Origin: Prescottella agglutinans
Lineage (GTDB): Bacteria > Actinomycetota > Actinomycetes > Mycobacteriales > Mycobacteriaceae
Assembly (NCBI RefSeq): GCF_004011865.1
Contig: NZ_RKLP01000001.1
Span: 682,001 to 746,000 of the forward strand
Direction of reading: 5' to 3'
Length of the DNA: 64,000 bases
Shown here: positions 36,645 to 40,964 of the stretch, in pieces
Numbering within the stretch: position 1 is the first letter of the stretch
Layout: each line of letters begins with the position of its first letter
Notes under the pieces: generated by a model
What the model was told of the DNA's origin: nothing
The model's database searches: none
What the model saw: only the letters and a program-made list of their open reading frames with translations
Translations under genes and position numbers: made by a program

Positions 36645-38039
36645 TCAGACGGGATCGACGAGGATCTCCTCCTCGGGTGCGCGCTCCTCCGGTTCGACCC
36701 ACCGGCGGAAGGCCAGGGCGAGCAGCACCAGCCACACCGCTCCGACGACGAGGGCCACCCGGGTGTCGGCGTCGAAGGCGAGCAGCGCGATCACGAAGAC
36801 CAGGAAGCCGATCGCGATCAGCTGCCCGTACGGCCAGAACGGCACCGGGAACTTCAGGGCGGCGGCCTCGTCCGCGCTCATCTTCTTCCGCGAGCGGTAC
36901 TGGGCCAGCAGGATCATCAGCCAGACGAAGATCGTCGCGAAGGTCGCGATCGACGCGATGACGAGGAAGACCCGGTCCGGCATCGCGTAGTTCAGGAGCA
37001 CCCCGACCAGCAGCGCGGCGACCATGATGAGCACCGTCATCCACGGGACCCCGTTGCGGGAGACCCGACGCATCACCGCGGGGGCCTGGCCGCGCTGCGC
37101 CATCCCGTACATCATGCGGCCGGCGCCGAAGATGTCGCTGTTGATCGCCGACAGTGCGGCGGTGATCACCACGATGTTCAGCACCGTCGCGGCCGGGCCG
37201 ATGCCGAGGCTCTGGAAGATCTGCACGAAGGGGCTGCCCTCGGCCCCGATGCTCTGCCACGGGGTGATCGCCATGATCACGGCCAGCGTGAGCACGTAGA
37301 AGACGATGATCCGGATGGGCACCGTGTTGATCGCCCGGGGGATGGTGCGCTCCGGGTCCTCGGCCTCGCCGGCCGTGATGCCGATGATCTCCGTACCGCC
37401 GAACGCGAACATCACGATCGCGAAGCAGCCGAGGAATCCGCCGATCCCGGTGGCGAAGAACCCGCCCTCGCTCCACAGGTTCGACACGCCCTCGCTGGTG
37501 TCGTGGAGACCGAACCCGAACACCAGGATCGCGATACCGCCGGCGATCATCGCCACGATCGCCACGATCTTGACGATCGTGAACCAGAACTCCACCTCAC
37601 CGAAGACCTTGACGCTGAGCATGTTGATCGCGCCGATGAAGAAGATGATCGCCAACACCCAGATCCACCGCGGGACGTCCGGGAACCAGAACCCCATGTA
37701 GACGCCGAAGGCGGTGACGTCGGCGAGGCAGACCACGATCATCTCGAACGTGTAGGTCCACCCGGTCGCGAAGCCGGCGAGTGGGCCCAAGTGCTTGCTC
37801 GCGTACTCGCCGAACGAACCCGACACCGGGTTGCTCACCGCCATTTCGCCGAGCGCACGGAGCACGATGTAGATCACCGCTCCGCCGATCAGATACGCCA
37901 GCAGAACGGACGGCCCGGCCTTGTTGATCGCCTCCGCCGAGCCGTAGAAGAGCCCGGTACCGATAGCGGACCCTAGGGCGATGAAGCGGATGTGGCGCGC
38001 TGTGAGACCTCGGGTCAGCGCCGAGGCGGTGTTTTTCAC
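36645..38039 (-). CDS. Amino-acid permease (AAT/APC family), probable histidine importer
   Basis: About 464 residues with 12 likely spans. The start region [25 protein letters not shown] is the hallmark of the AAT family of proton-coupled amino-acid permeases, and [10 protein letters not shown] follows. The GTG at 38039 (MKNTASAL after processing of the start) has GGGAG 7 nt upstream and is preferred over the longer open frame. Its placement directly before hutH suggests histidine as substrate, although proline or aromatic permeases look similar. Its promoter region contains TGTCTA repeats like those bound by HutC-type GntR repressors. Confidence 0.85.
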
Positions 38040-38141
38040 AATCGAACTCCCTGGACGGTGGCGTTTGTCGGCAGGTGCGGCGTCGGCTCGACACCCCGGG
38101 TTTTGTGCGACTTTTGTGCTCTGCATCACAACCTGCGGCGA

Positions 38142-38166
38142 CATGTCTAGTCCTGTCTATACATGT
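38142..38166. promoter_or_regulatory. Candidate HutC/GntR-type operator before the hut permease
   Basis: The stretch holds TGTCTAG (38144-38150) and TGTCTATACA (38154-38163), flanked by ACATGT at 38141-38146 and 38161-38166. The reverse complement TGTATAGACA resembles known HutC operators. It lies about 100 nt upstream of the permease start and about 90 nt upstream of the SAM-IV riboswitch. No hutC gene is present in the window, so the regulator is unknown. Confidence 0.45.
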
Positions 38167-38255: not shown

Positions 38256-38373
38256 GGTCATGAGTGCCAGCGCCAAGCCCCGGCTCGCTGGCCGGCAACC
38301 CTCCAACCGCGGTGGGGTGCCCCGGGTGATGACCAGGTTTTCCGGCGCGAGTCGGGAAACAAGCGCGGGTCCG
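38256..38373 (+). ncRNA. SAM-IV riboswitch
   Basis: The RNA begins with GGTCATGAGTGCCAGCG (38256) and closes P1 with ATGACC (38329-38334), pairing with GGTCAT at 38256-38261. In between are the conserved actinobacterial segments AAGCCCCGGCTCGCTGGCCG, GGCAACCCTCCAACCGCGG and GGGGTGCCCCGGG, and downstream the conserved AAGCGCGGGTCC (38361-38372). This matches the SAM-IV class as I know it from mycobacterial and Streptomyces met genes. It binds S-adenosylmethionine and reduces metYX expression. A GGGTCCG/CGGACCC hairpin (38367-38386) directly after the core may be the expression platform. Confidence 0.92.
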
Positions 38374-38419
38374 CTGGGACGGACCCACTGACCGGGCCAT
38401 GCCCCACCGGAGGTTCACC

Positions 38420-38440
38420 ATGTGTTGTTGTCTCGAGTAG
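38420..38440 (+). CDS. Poly-cysteine leader peptide (Met-Cys-Cys-Cys-Leu-Glu)
   Basis: ATG at 38420 is followed by three TGT codons, CTC, GAG and the stop TAG, giving a six-residue peptide. A good ribosome-binding site GGAGG (38409-38413) lies 6 nt before it. It is positioned between the SAM-IV riboswitch and metY (80 nt upstream of the metY start). Short ORFs with consecutive Cys codons are known in mycobacteria as cysteine-responsive attenuators of sulfur genes, and TGT is otherwise a rare codon in this genome, where TGC dominates. The inferred role is to sense Cys-tRNA supply through ribosome stalling. Too short for gene finders. Confidence 0.7.
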
Positions 38441-38520
38441 CCGGTCCCCACGCGCGCATTCCATGCTGCGCACATTCCCCCTGCTGACGACCCTCTCCCG
38501 AACCTGGAGTAGAACGACCC

Positions 38521-39822
38521 ATGACCGAAATCACGGATCCCTCGGCGACCTGGAGCTTCGAGACCAAGCAGATCCACGCCGGACAGTTGCCGGACGGCAC
38601 CACCAATGCGCGCGCGCTGCCGATCTACCAGACCACGTCGTACACGTTCAACAGCACCGACCATGCGGCCGCGCTGTTCGGTCTGGCCGAGCCGGGCAAC
38701 ATCTACACCCGGATCATGAACCCGACGCAGGACGCCGTCGAGCAGCGGATCGCCGCGCTCGAGGGTGGCGTCGCGGCGCTGCTCCTCGCGTCCGGTCAGG
38801 CCGCCGAGACGTTCGCGATCCTCAACCTCGCCGAGGCCGGCGACCACATCGTGTCGAGCCCGCGCCTGTACGGCGGCACGTACAACCTGTTCCACTACTC
38901 GCTGCGCAAGCTCGGCATCGAGGTCTCGTTCGTCGAGGATCCCGACGACATCGAGCAGTGGCGTGCCGCGATCCGTCCGAACACCAAGGCGTTCTACGGC
39001 GAGTCGATCTCGAACCCGCGCAACGACGTGCTCGACATCCCGGGCATCTCGAAGGTCGCGCACGAGAACGGCATCCCGCTGATCGTCGACAACACGGTCG
39101 CGACGCCGTACCTGATCCGCCCGCTCGAGCACGGCGCCGACATCGTCGTCCACTCGGCCACCAAGTACCTCGGCGGCCACGGCACCGCGGTCGCCGGTGT
39201 GATCGTCGACGGCGGCAAGTTCGACTGGACGCAGGGCCGGCACACCAACTTCACGACGGCCGATCCGAGCTACCACGGCGTCGTGTACGCCGACCTGGGC
39301 GCCCCGGCGTTCGCGCTGAAGGCCCGCGTGCAGCTGCTGCGCGACCTCGGCGCCGCGATCTCGCCGTTCAACGCGTTCCTCATCTCGCAGGGCATCGAGA
39401 CGCTGAGCCTGCGCATGGAGCGCCACGTCGCGAACGCGAAGGCCGTCGCGGAGTACCTGGAGGCGCGCGCCGACGTGAAGTCCGTGTCGTACGCGGGCCT
39501 GGAGTCCTCGCCGTGGCACGAGCGCGGCAAGACGCTGGCGCCGCGCGGCACCGGCGCGATCGTCGCGTTCGAGCTGGCCGGCGGCATCGACGCCGGCAAG
39601 AAGTTCGTCAACGCGCTGACGCTGCACAGCCACGTCGCCAACATCGGCGACGTGCGTTCGCTGGTGATCCACCCGGCCTCGACCACGCACTCGCAGCTGA
39701 CTCCCGAGGAGCAGCTCGCGTCGGGTGTCACGCCCGGTCTGGTGCGCCTCGCCGTCGGTATCGAGGGCATCGACGACATCATCGCCGACCTCGAAGCCGG
39801 GTTTGCGGCGGCGGCGTCTTGA
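38521..39822 (+). CDS. metY: O-acetylhomoserine sulfhydrylase
   Basis: A 433-residue PLP enzyme of the Cys/Met metabolism family, making homocysteine from O-acetylhomoserine and sulfide. The PLP lysine lies in [12 protein letters not shown], and [22 protein letters not shown] is the N-terminal signature. The length, longer than cystathionine-type paralogues, is normal for MetY. The ATG at 38521 follows a CTGGAG site. Its stop overlaps the TTG start of metX, so the two are translated together. Expression is governed by a leader with a SAM-IV riboswitch and a poly-Cys uORF. Confidence 0.95.
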
Positions 39823-40964
39823 CAGTCAGCTCGGTTCGCAACGCCCGTCCGGCGGGATTCCCCCCGCCGGACGGGCAGTTGGGCTTTGTGCACATCGGCT
39901 CGATCGAACTCGAGACCGGTGTGGTGCTGCCCGATGTCACCATCGCGATCCAGCGCTGGGGTGAGCTCTCCCCCAACAAGGACAACGTGGTTCTCGTCGA
40001 GCACGCCCTCACCGGCGACTCGCACGTGACCGGCCCGGCCGACGACGAGCATCCCTCCCCCGGATGGTGGGACGGCATGGTCGGCCCCGGCGCACCGATC
40101 GACACCGACGAGTGGTGCGTGCTGGCGGCGAACGTGCTCGGCGGCTGCCGCGGCACGACGGGGCCGGGCTCACTCGCGGCCGACGGCGCGCCGTGGGGAT
40201 CGCGGTTCCCCGAGATCTCGATCCGCGACCAGGTGACCGCCGAGGTCGCGCTCGCGGATGTGCTGGGCATCGAACGCTTCTCGGCCGTCGTCGGAGGGTC
40301 GATGGGCGGGATGCGGACGCTGGAGTGGATCGTCGGTCATCCCGACCGGGTCGATGCCGCGCTGATCCTCGCGGTCGGTGCGCGGGCCACCGCCGACCAG
40401 ATCGGCACCCAGACCACGCAGATCCAGATCGTCACGAGCGACCCCGACTGGCTGGGCGGCGACTACCACGGCACGGGGCGGGTCCCGCGGAACGGGCTGG
40501 GCCTCGCCCGTCGGATCGCGCACCTGACGTACCGCACCGAGAACGAACTGGACTCGCGCTTCGCGAACGACAGTCAGGCCGGCGAGAACCCCTGGGCCGG
40601 TGGGCGTTACGCGGTCCAGAGCTACCTCGATCATCAGGCCGAGAAGCTGGTTGCCCGGTTCGACCCGAGCACCTACGTGCTCCTGACCGAGGCCATGAAC
40701 CGGCACGACGTGGGCCGCGGACGCGGCGGAGTCGAGGCGGCCCTCGGGTCGACGAACGTTCCGGTGATCGTCGGCGGTGTCGACTCGGATCGGCTGTACC
40801 CGCTGCGCCTTCAGCAGGAACTCGCGGACGGCCTGCCCGGCTGCGACTGGTTGCGCGTGCTCGAGTCGAAGGACGGCCACGACGGCTTCCTCACCGAGGC
40901 CGACGCGGTGGCCGAGATGTTGAAGGAGACGATGGAACTGGCGCGCGACGCCCGTCGCGCCTAG
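39819..40964 (+). CDS. metX: Homoserine O-acetyltransferase
   Basis: A 381-residue alpha/beta-hydrolase-fold enzyme that acetylates homoserine for MetY. The nucleophile elbow GGSMGGM is clear, preceded by LNVLGG-like [13 protein letters not shown] and followed by [10 protein letters not shown] and the C-terminal His in GHDGF. The likely start is TTG at 39819, overlapping the metY stop as TTGA; the alternative GTG at FVHIGS would remove the conserved N-terminal strand. Ends before a strong hairpin. Confidence 0.95.

Follow-up and report, generated by a model that had tools for sequence, protein, structure and literature searches.

A predicted two-sensor leader before metYX: a SAM-IV riboswitch followed by a cysteine-codon uORF in Prescottella agglutinans and its relatives

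Cysteine-reading short ORFs and riboswitch-controlled uORFs

In Salmonella, the mgtA leader joins an RNA that responds to ions to short ORFs with a sensing role, and the mgtCBR leader, as far as the accessible part of its source shows, is built likewise. Both are enterobacterial, and their signals differ from SAM and cysteine. In Mycobacterium tuberculosis, the Mbox/rv1805A leader (PMC12810186) and the B12-riboswitch/uPPE2 leader (PMC11260477) similarly place a riboswitch before a conserved uORF and, in the portions of these papers open to us, are presented with a translational platform and Rho; their ligands differ from SAM, and the main texts of both papers contain no words beginning SAM-IV or cysteine.

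Short ORFs rich in Cys codons form a second group of relevant systems. Polycysteine short ORFs of mycobacteria are reportedly leaderless (Canestrari et al. 2020), and a sequence-only reading of the leader studied here had compared its uORF with such attenuators. The comparison holds in that both are short ORFs with contiguous Cys codons, theirs lying before cysteine genes; it fails on initiation, as the frame described here has a conserved Shine-Dalgarno sequence (SD), and it differs further in having a SAM-IV aptamer on its 5′ side and metY on its 3′ side. Judged from the letters, the conserved GGAGG six bases 5′ of position 38420 and the upstream aptamer speak against leaderless initiation at that position. 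Cys leader peptides have also been predicted before actinobacterial cys operons and cbs (Seliverstov et al. 2005, PMC1262725). As far as the accessible text goes, these resemble the present frame in their Cys runs and in having no terminator hairpin, with Rho suggested there, and they stand before cys operons and cbs without a SAM riboswitch or metY, unlike the frame here. The uORFC-8-2 motif before cysS in Rhodobacterales is likewise a uORF with tandem Cys codons; it differs, in the part of the source seen, by an intrinsic terminator, by its alphaproteobacterial hosts and by the dominance of UGC (PMC8632094).

SAM-IV riboswitches have been placed before an O-acetylhomoserine sulfhydrylase gene in M. 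avium, where the portion of the paper available to us does not mention a uORF (PMC3774663), and before a cysteine desulfurase gene in Streptomyces lividans (PMC8079986, accessible part). The latter source also gives an S. lividans metNIQ leader peptide, called methionine-dependent by its authors, which ends CMCRRMCAF and so holds three close Cys codons; this peptide might read cysteine too. Among the matches listed in our literature search, and within the accessible parts of those papers, no report joins a SAM-IV riboswitch with a Cys uORF, although subscription papers lay largely beyond reach. Cys attenuators and riboswitch-plus-uORF leaders are each already known; a leader joining SAM-IV and a Cys uORF would, on the literature open to us, be a new combination of known kinds.

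Anatomy of the metYX leader

The window that we analyzed is a stretch of 64,000 nucleotides of the P. agglutinans genome (NZ_RKLP01000001.1, positions 682,001 to 746,000); the coordinates used here are positions in this window, and features lie on the + strand unless stated. The SAM-IV riboswitch aptamer (RF00634) occupies 38256..38371, where cmscan matches the covariance model over its whole length (positions 1-116 of 116) with 123.1 bits against a gathering cut-off of 38. The sequence-only reading had recognized this aptamer and its first base, and had set its end at 38373, two bases beyond the Rfam boundary. By complementarity seen by eye, we propose that the P3 loop CCGC (38307..38310) forms a pseudoknot with the GCGG of the aptamer tail (38365..38368), the last two G of which also open the next hairpin; the proposed strands covary in relatives, reading CCAC/GTGG in locus L025 and TGCG/CGCA in a Nocardia locus (L044). 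Directly 3′ of the aptamer, the hairpin GGGTCCG-CTGGGA-CGGACCC (38367..38386) is a possible SAM expression platform. A similar hairpin is present in the genus and in several relatives, whereas none was seen in Nocardia, L044 for example. Read on the - strand (38365-38388), the hairpin resembles a terminator, a stem followed by a T-rich tail, and lies upstream of an amino-acid permease gene that runs divergently (36645-38144).

The uORF follows at 38420..38440 and encodes Met-Cys-Cys-Cys-Leu-Glu (ATG TGT TGT TGT CTC GAG TAG, with TAG as its stop); its SD, GGAGG, lies at 38409..38413, 6 nt 5′ of the ATG. The sequence-only reading had described this frame with its own GGAGG and a stop 80 nt before metY, and every one of these elements was found in place. 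It had also called TGT rare, which agrees with the 13 TGT against 119 TGC codons in the 33 coding-like ORFs of the window. The string ATGTGTTGTTGT is found once in the 5.4 Mb genome, and ATGTGYTGYTGY has three further matches there, all of them all-TGC. As in the polycysteine attenuators, the frame is short, carries its Cys codons side by side and stands ahead of a sulfur gene. A 12-base complement of CCCCACCGGAGG (38402-38413) to the aptamer at about 38300-38317, noticed by eye, was dropped; its CCCCACC half is lost outside close relatives.

Downstream, metY (38521..39822) encodes a bifunctional O-acetylhomoserine/O-acetylserine sulfhydrylase (NF005872, 865 bits, cut-off 703; PF01053), and metX (39819..40964, start approximate) a homoserine O-acetyltransferase (NF047917, 605 bits, cut-off 475). 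Because MetY fits the NCBI equivalog model for the bifunctional enzyme, it may itself make cysteine, and SAM and cysteine would both be sensible inputs; cysteine is then not necessarily only the competing sulfur route that the sequence-only reading had taken it to be.

Conservation of the Cys codons and of the SD

The first reading had proposed alignment with related genomes as a check, and this alignment favored it: all 14 genomes of the genus that were searched retain the Cys codons and the SD in their place, as do related genera and families. Since these elements are so widely kept, the composite of a SAM riboswitch and a Cys-codon uORF is, as anatomy, well supported by the comparison. Aptamer and GGAGG are present in 14 of 14, and the frames have six codons, or seven if a second Met follows the first. 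Genus peptides with the full Cys run are MCCCLE, MCCCRR, MCCCRT, MCCCHE and MMCCCRR; the frames of five of the 14 genomes encode two Cys and one Ser (MCSCHE twice, MCSCRE, MCCSPP and MCCSHH). Beyond the genus, R. wratislaviensis and similar strains carry MCCCCRR, the Nocardia frames read MCCCRSQFAFR, MCCCPSIRPS or MCCCG, other Rhodococcus have longer frames starting MCC or MCCC, and uncultured Nanopelagicales-like lineages have MCCLPCCC and MCCSICCC. Two genera of the family (L022, L027, L028, L134, L137 and L145) carry MSRCR at the place of the uORF, with one Cys codon between two Arg codons, a less clear case that is perhaps a degenerate or re-tuned sensor. Seven mycobacterial metY leaders (L055, L057, L058, L064, L068, L074 and L080) contain longer frames whose Cys codons lie close to the stop and whose SD is weak or borderline; these frames are closer than the Rhodococcus form to the Cys leader peptides already published. 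Other mycobacteria have no such frame.

Counts were made on the best 80 of 582 named MetY relatives, all Rfam-scanned. A SAM-IV match lies ahead of metY on the same strand in 53 of these loci and was not found in the other 27, which include two Rhodococcus loci, L034 and L036. A uORF was scored when an ATG frame of at most 30 codons held at least two Cys codons and was preceded by GGAGG, AGGAG, GAGG, GGAG or AGGA in the 14 bases ending three before the ATG. By this rule 27 of the 53 leaders have a Cys uORF, against 0.395 expected from 200 dinucleotide shuffles per leader of the same stretches; these shuffles, together with the conservation, rule out a chance open frame. Applied to other amino acids in the same 53 leaders (from the best 80 of 582), the rule returned Arg in 20 leaders (many in the same peptides), Ser in 11 and the rest in at most 7, and when at least three residues were required, Cys remained in 22 of the 53 leaders and Arg in 7. 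This preference bears on a reading in which the uORF merely relays the SAM signal, the riboswitch opening the uORF and coupling opening metY, with no sensing of cysteine by the Cys codons. The published riboswitch-controlled uORFs of M. tuberculosis, for which amino-acid sensing is unreported in the parts available to us, offer a model for such a relay, and the uORF does sit in the slot that the metY SD fills in relatives under direct control; the relay nevertheless leaves unexplained both the choice of Cys among the 20 amino acids and peptides such as MCCLPCCC and MCCCCRR, and we consider it improbable. We predict instead that the uORF is a Cys sensor, and hold this to be very probable.

The evolution of the frame was followed in 67 uORF leaders (69 minus two duplicates), collected by a looser rule than the 27, with GTG allowed and one Cys sufficient. 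The SD-ATG spacing is 5-10 nt throughout and exactly 6 nt in 33; seven of the 67 have a single Cys codon, and stop codons of all three kinds occur. Whole-codon insertions, exchange of TGT for TGC and free tails fit a translated peptide, and the pattern, as it appears in the alignments, is that of a frame under selection, in which SD, ATG and Cys stay constant while tails and stops vary; selection on the Cys codons and SD, like the anatomy itself, is what the comparison shows. Among the Cys codons TGT outnumbers TGC by 160 to 26 (in kin rather than independent sequences), opposite to the coding-like ORFs of the window, and this preference may reflect slower decoding, an open start region or pairing. 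The excess of TGT, which suits pairing with A or G at the metY start, and the near-invariance of the bases 5′ of the uORF within the genus would also be expected if the stretch were conserved as RNA, as a structure or a protein site, with the open frame a by-product. However, the kept SD-ATG spacing, the whole-codon insertions, the synonymous TGC and the three kinds of stop argue for a frame, TGT is also used in clades without anti-start pairing, and conservation as RNA alone is highly improbable.

On a tree of 53 metY proteins (from the best 80 of 582), the uORF label changes state 7 times, against 17.4 in shuffles, which indicates that the uORF was mostly inherited. L077 is absent from the tree; visual inspection gave seven loci the label of a weak-SD Cys ORF, and the uORF label of L035 and L065 was assigned by hand. 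The 30 uORF rows extend across Nocardiaceae, three Mycobacterium and uncultured actinobacterial lineages, and the uORF is missing from Gordonia/Williamsia, Geodermatophilaceae, some of the mycobacteria and a few other rows. Separate pattern scans matched 48 of 401 family and 8 of 396 phylum genomes with a gap limit too short for the genus itself (0 of 14), and the phylum matches mostly look like coding coincidences; the scans were not used as counts.

A second sample comprised 130 SAM-IV places of the family among the matches listed, made up of 30 loci plus the 100 that came next in order; 128 of the 130 could be oriented (all except L125 and L158). Within the matches listed, 54 of these leaders precede metY, 65 an L009-like gene and 9 other genes. 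L009 encodes a class-V aminotransferase whose best match is to the SufS cysteine desulfurases, below the curated cut-off of that model. Among the matches listed, a uORF with at least two Cys is present in 25 of the 54 metY leaders and one with at least one Cys in 31, and the rule found no Cys uORF in the 65 SufS-like or the 9 other SAM-IV leaders; the contrast with the SufS-like leaders is weaker than it appears because these are mostly short (a gap of less than 70 nt in 60 of 65), and the 9 unclassified leaders were searched over a fixed 150 nt. In 16 of the 54 metY leaders listed, metY starts 44-61 bases past the aptamer and no uORF is found by the rule; of the remaining 38, again among the matches listed, 31 have one. 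L193, uORF-less by the rule, has a frame with a GTG start (GTG TGT TGC TCT CGC TGA), L206 a longer frame starting MCCC, and L216 a poor SD; the Cys run of L138 has no obvious start codon, and no Cys uORF was seen by eye in the metY leaders L133, L217 and L220. The genome under study has a second SAM-IV riboswitch (L130, G000:C2:10726-10840), which precedes an L009-like gene, as do 64 further SAM-IV leaders of the family among the matches listed. In six places (L153, L159, L178, L209, L211 and L212) SAM-IV lies before another gene, with a product starting SYAGDITPQQAWDLL or similar, rhodanese-like by eye.

From the uORF to the metY start

The metYX leader is probably a single mRNA that reads two sulfur end products, SAM and cysteine, and a translational attenuator is the likeliest mechanism. 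We infer that the SD-led uORF is translated and that its Cys codons would report the supply of Cys-tRNA. In the genus, the uORF start and Cys codons (38419-38429) would pair with the metY start (38513-38523) and hold metY closed. When cysteine is short, a ribosome held at the Cys codons would cover the 5′ strand and leave the metY start open; when cysteine is plentiful, the ribosome would depart and the metY start reclose. At high SAM no ribosome would occupy the uORF, and metY would remain shut. In the mycobacterial polycysteine ORFs, too, stalling at the Cys codons is reportedly proposed to free the downstream start. As a whole explanation, this two-sensor RNA, composed of a SAM-IV riboswitch and an SD-led, Cys-reading uORF with an anti-start output, is one in which we have moderate confidence.

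The output step was examined by folding. The proposed anti-start helix has CAUG-U-GUUGUU (38419..38429) as its 5′ strand and AACGAC-C-CAUG (38513..38523), over the metY start codon, as its 3′ strand. In a fixed register, all 10 chosen positions pair in the window, and across the 14 genus genomes standard pairs fill 128 of 140 cells (74 of 84 when the palindromic CAUG is excluded). The mean for other registers is 4.3 of 10, but this register was itself taken from folds of the sequences on which it is scored and for that reason tends to beat the others; the 14 genomes, moreover, are kin, not independent. Differences on the metY side are mostly A versus G opposite U, and two of the six non-trivial pairs are broken in four genus genomes (L003, L004, L006 and L120). 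Of the sister-genus loci, L010, L017, L013, L021 and L128 score 9 or 10 of 10 and L193 scores 6; L037 and L202 reach 9, and 53 leaders outside the genus average 6.5. When the uORF was masked as if by a stalled ribosome, the metY start became 1.9 kcal/mol easier to open in the genus mean, against 0.67 for shuffled uORFs. The window ranked 0.02 in this test (1 of 60 shuffles) and the genus averaged 0.17, with ranks of 0.27-0.80 in four genomes (L004, L006, L008 and L120). When all 67 uORF leaders were taken together the ranks averaged 0.37, from which it follows that the output step elsewhere differs or goes undetected, and none of seven Nocardia leaders ranked below 0.18. In an earlier duplex test on 61 leaders, several with misplaced metY starts, the mean rank was 0.41 against shuffles and 0.51 against swaps; anti-start pairing as a general device of all clades is unsupported by the duplex and masking tests. 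The whole segment folded no better than its shuffles (z -0.43). The metY SD (GGAG, 38506-38509) is enclosed by a local hairpin, CUCC-CGAACCU-GGAG (38495..38509), in which it remains about 80% paired in the window, stalled ribosome or not. Comparison and modeled folds support a potential for anti-start pairing only in Rhodococcus-like clades, and that this pairing is the output of the uORF in the genus has, in our judgment, slightly better than an even chance.

An output through transcription would use the stretch between the two frames differently. No intrinsic terminator (a stem plus T run) was found on the + strand between 38100 and 38600, and the leader consequently does not have the form of a classical transcription attenuator, with such a terminator between uORF and gene. 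The spacer 38441..38506, which contains a GC-rich hairpin (38452-38471), is C-rich and G-poor (C 0.485, G 0.197) and is a possible Rho-binding stretch: translation of the uORF, or stalling on it, could set the loading of Rho here and with it whether transcription ends before metY, with the riboswitch working via uORF translation. No other of the window's 28 upstream stretches has as high a C content, 55 of the 59 uORF spacers of sufficient length for counting hold more C than G, and M. tuberculosis offers precedents, at least in the accessible parts of the sources, in an Mbox that controls a uORF with Rho-dependent termination (PMC12810186) and a B12 riboswitch with a uORF (PMC11260477). However, C exceeds G in 16 of the 28 upstream stretches anyway, and the rut site is only putative. 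Moreover, a stalled ribosome bares the spacer as much as one that has finished, so that a further element would be needed to give the Cys response its sign. We judge Rho-dependent attenuation unlikely as the explanation and regard a Rho-dependent output as a serious rival, a real alternative or addition to the translational attenuator, which we continue to prefer.

The part played by SAM is approached through position. In relatives without a uORF, the metY SD occupies the place held here by the uORF SD. Binding of SAM to a SAM-IV riboswitch lowers expression of the downstream gene. Because the riboswitch adjoins the uORF, at the metY-SD slot of uORF-less relatives, SAM would most likely act on uORF initiation; that SAM acts via the uORF, argued from position and from the usual behavior of SAM-IV, we put at a little under an even chance. 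In folding with a four-base aptamer tail and a shorter leader stretch, the effect of SAM on the uORF SD was +0.76 kcal/mol over 67 leaders, and for the genus +0.16 kcal/mol, with a rise in 5 genomes and a fall in 4; a tail one G too long gave +2.20 kcal/mol over the 67. We do not rely on any of these values. Like translation of the uORF and stalling on it, the SAM gating and the direction of the response to cysteine set out above are predictions. More tentatively still, the leader could be a hierarchical two-input gate across several actinobacterial lineages, a possible but doubtful extension in which the SAM riboswitch would set only the loading of the uORF, not metY, and the gate would open only when SAM is low and Cys-tRNA scarce. 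Such a gate may have originated with a mini-ORF placed into the slot of the directly switched metY starts of uORF-less relatives.

If the two-sensor reading is right, one leader would read two products of its own pathway, SAM by an aptamer and cysteine by a ribosome, and would unite two RNA devices usually studied separately. A six-codon frame, below ordinary annotation size, would be marked as functional, and the leader would provide a small testable model for signal integration within one RNA. It would also go some way toward explaining how sulfide is shared out between cysteine and methionine in actinobacteria.
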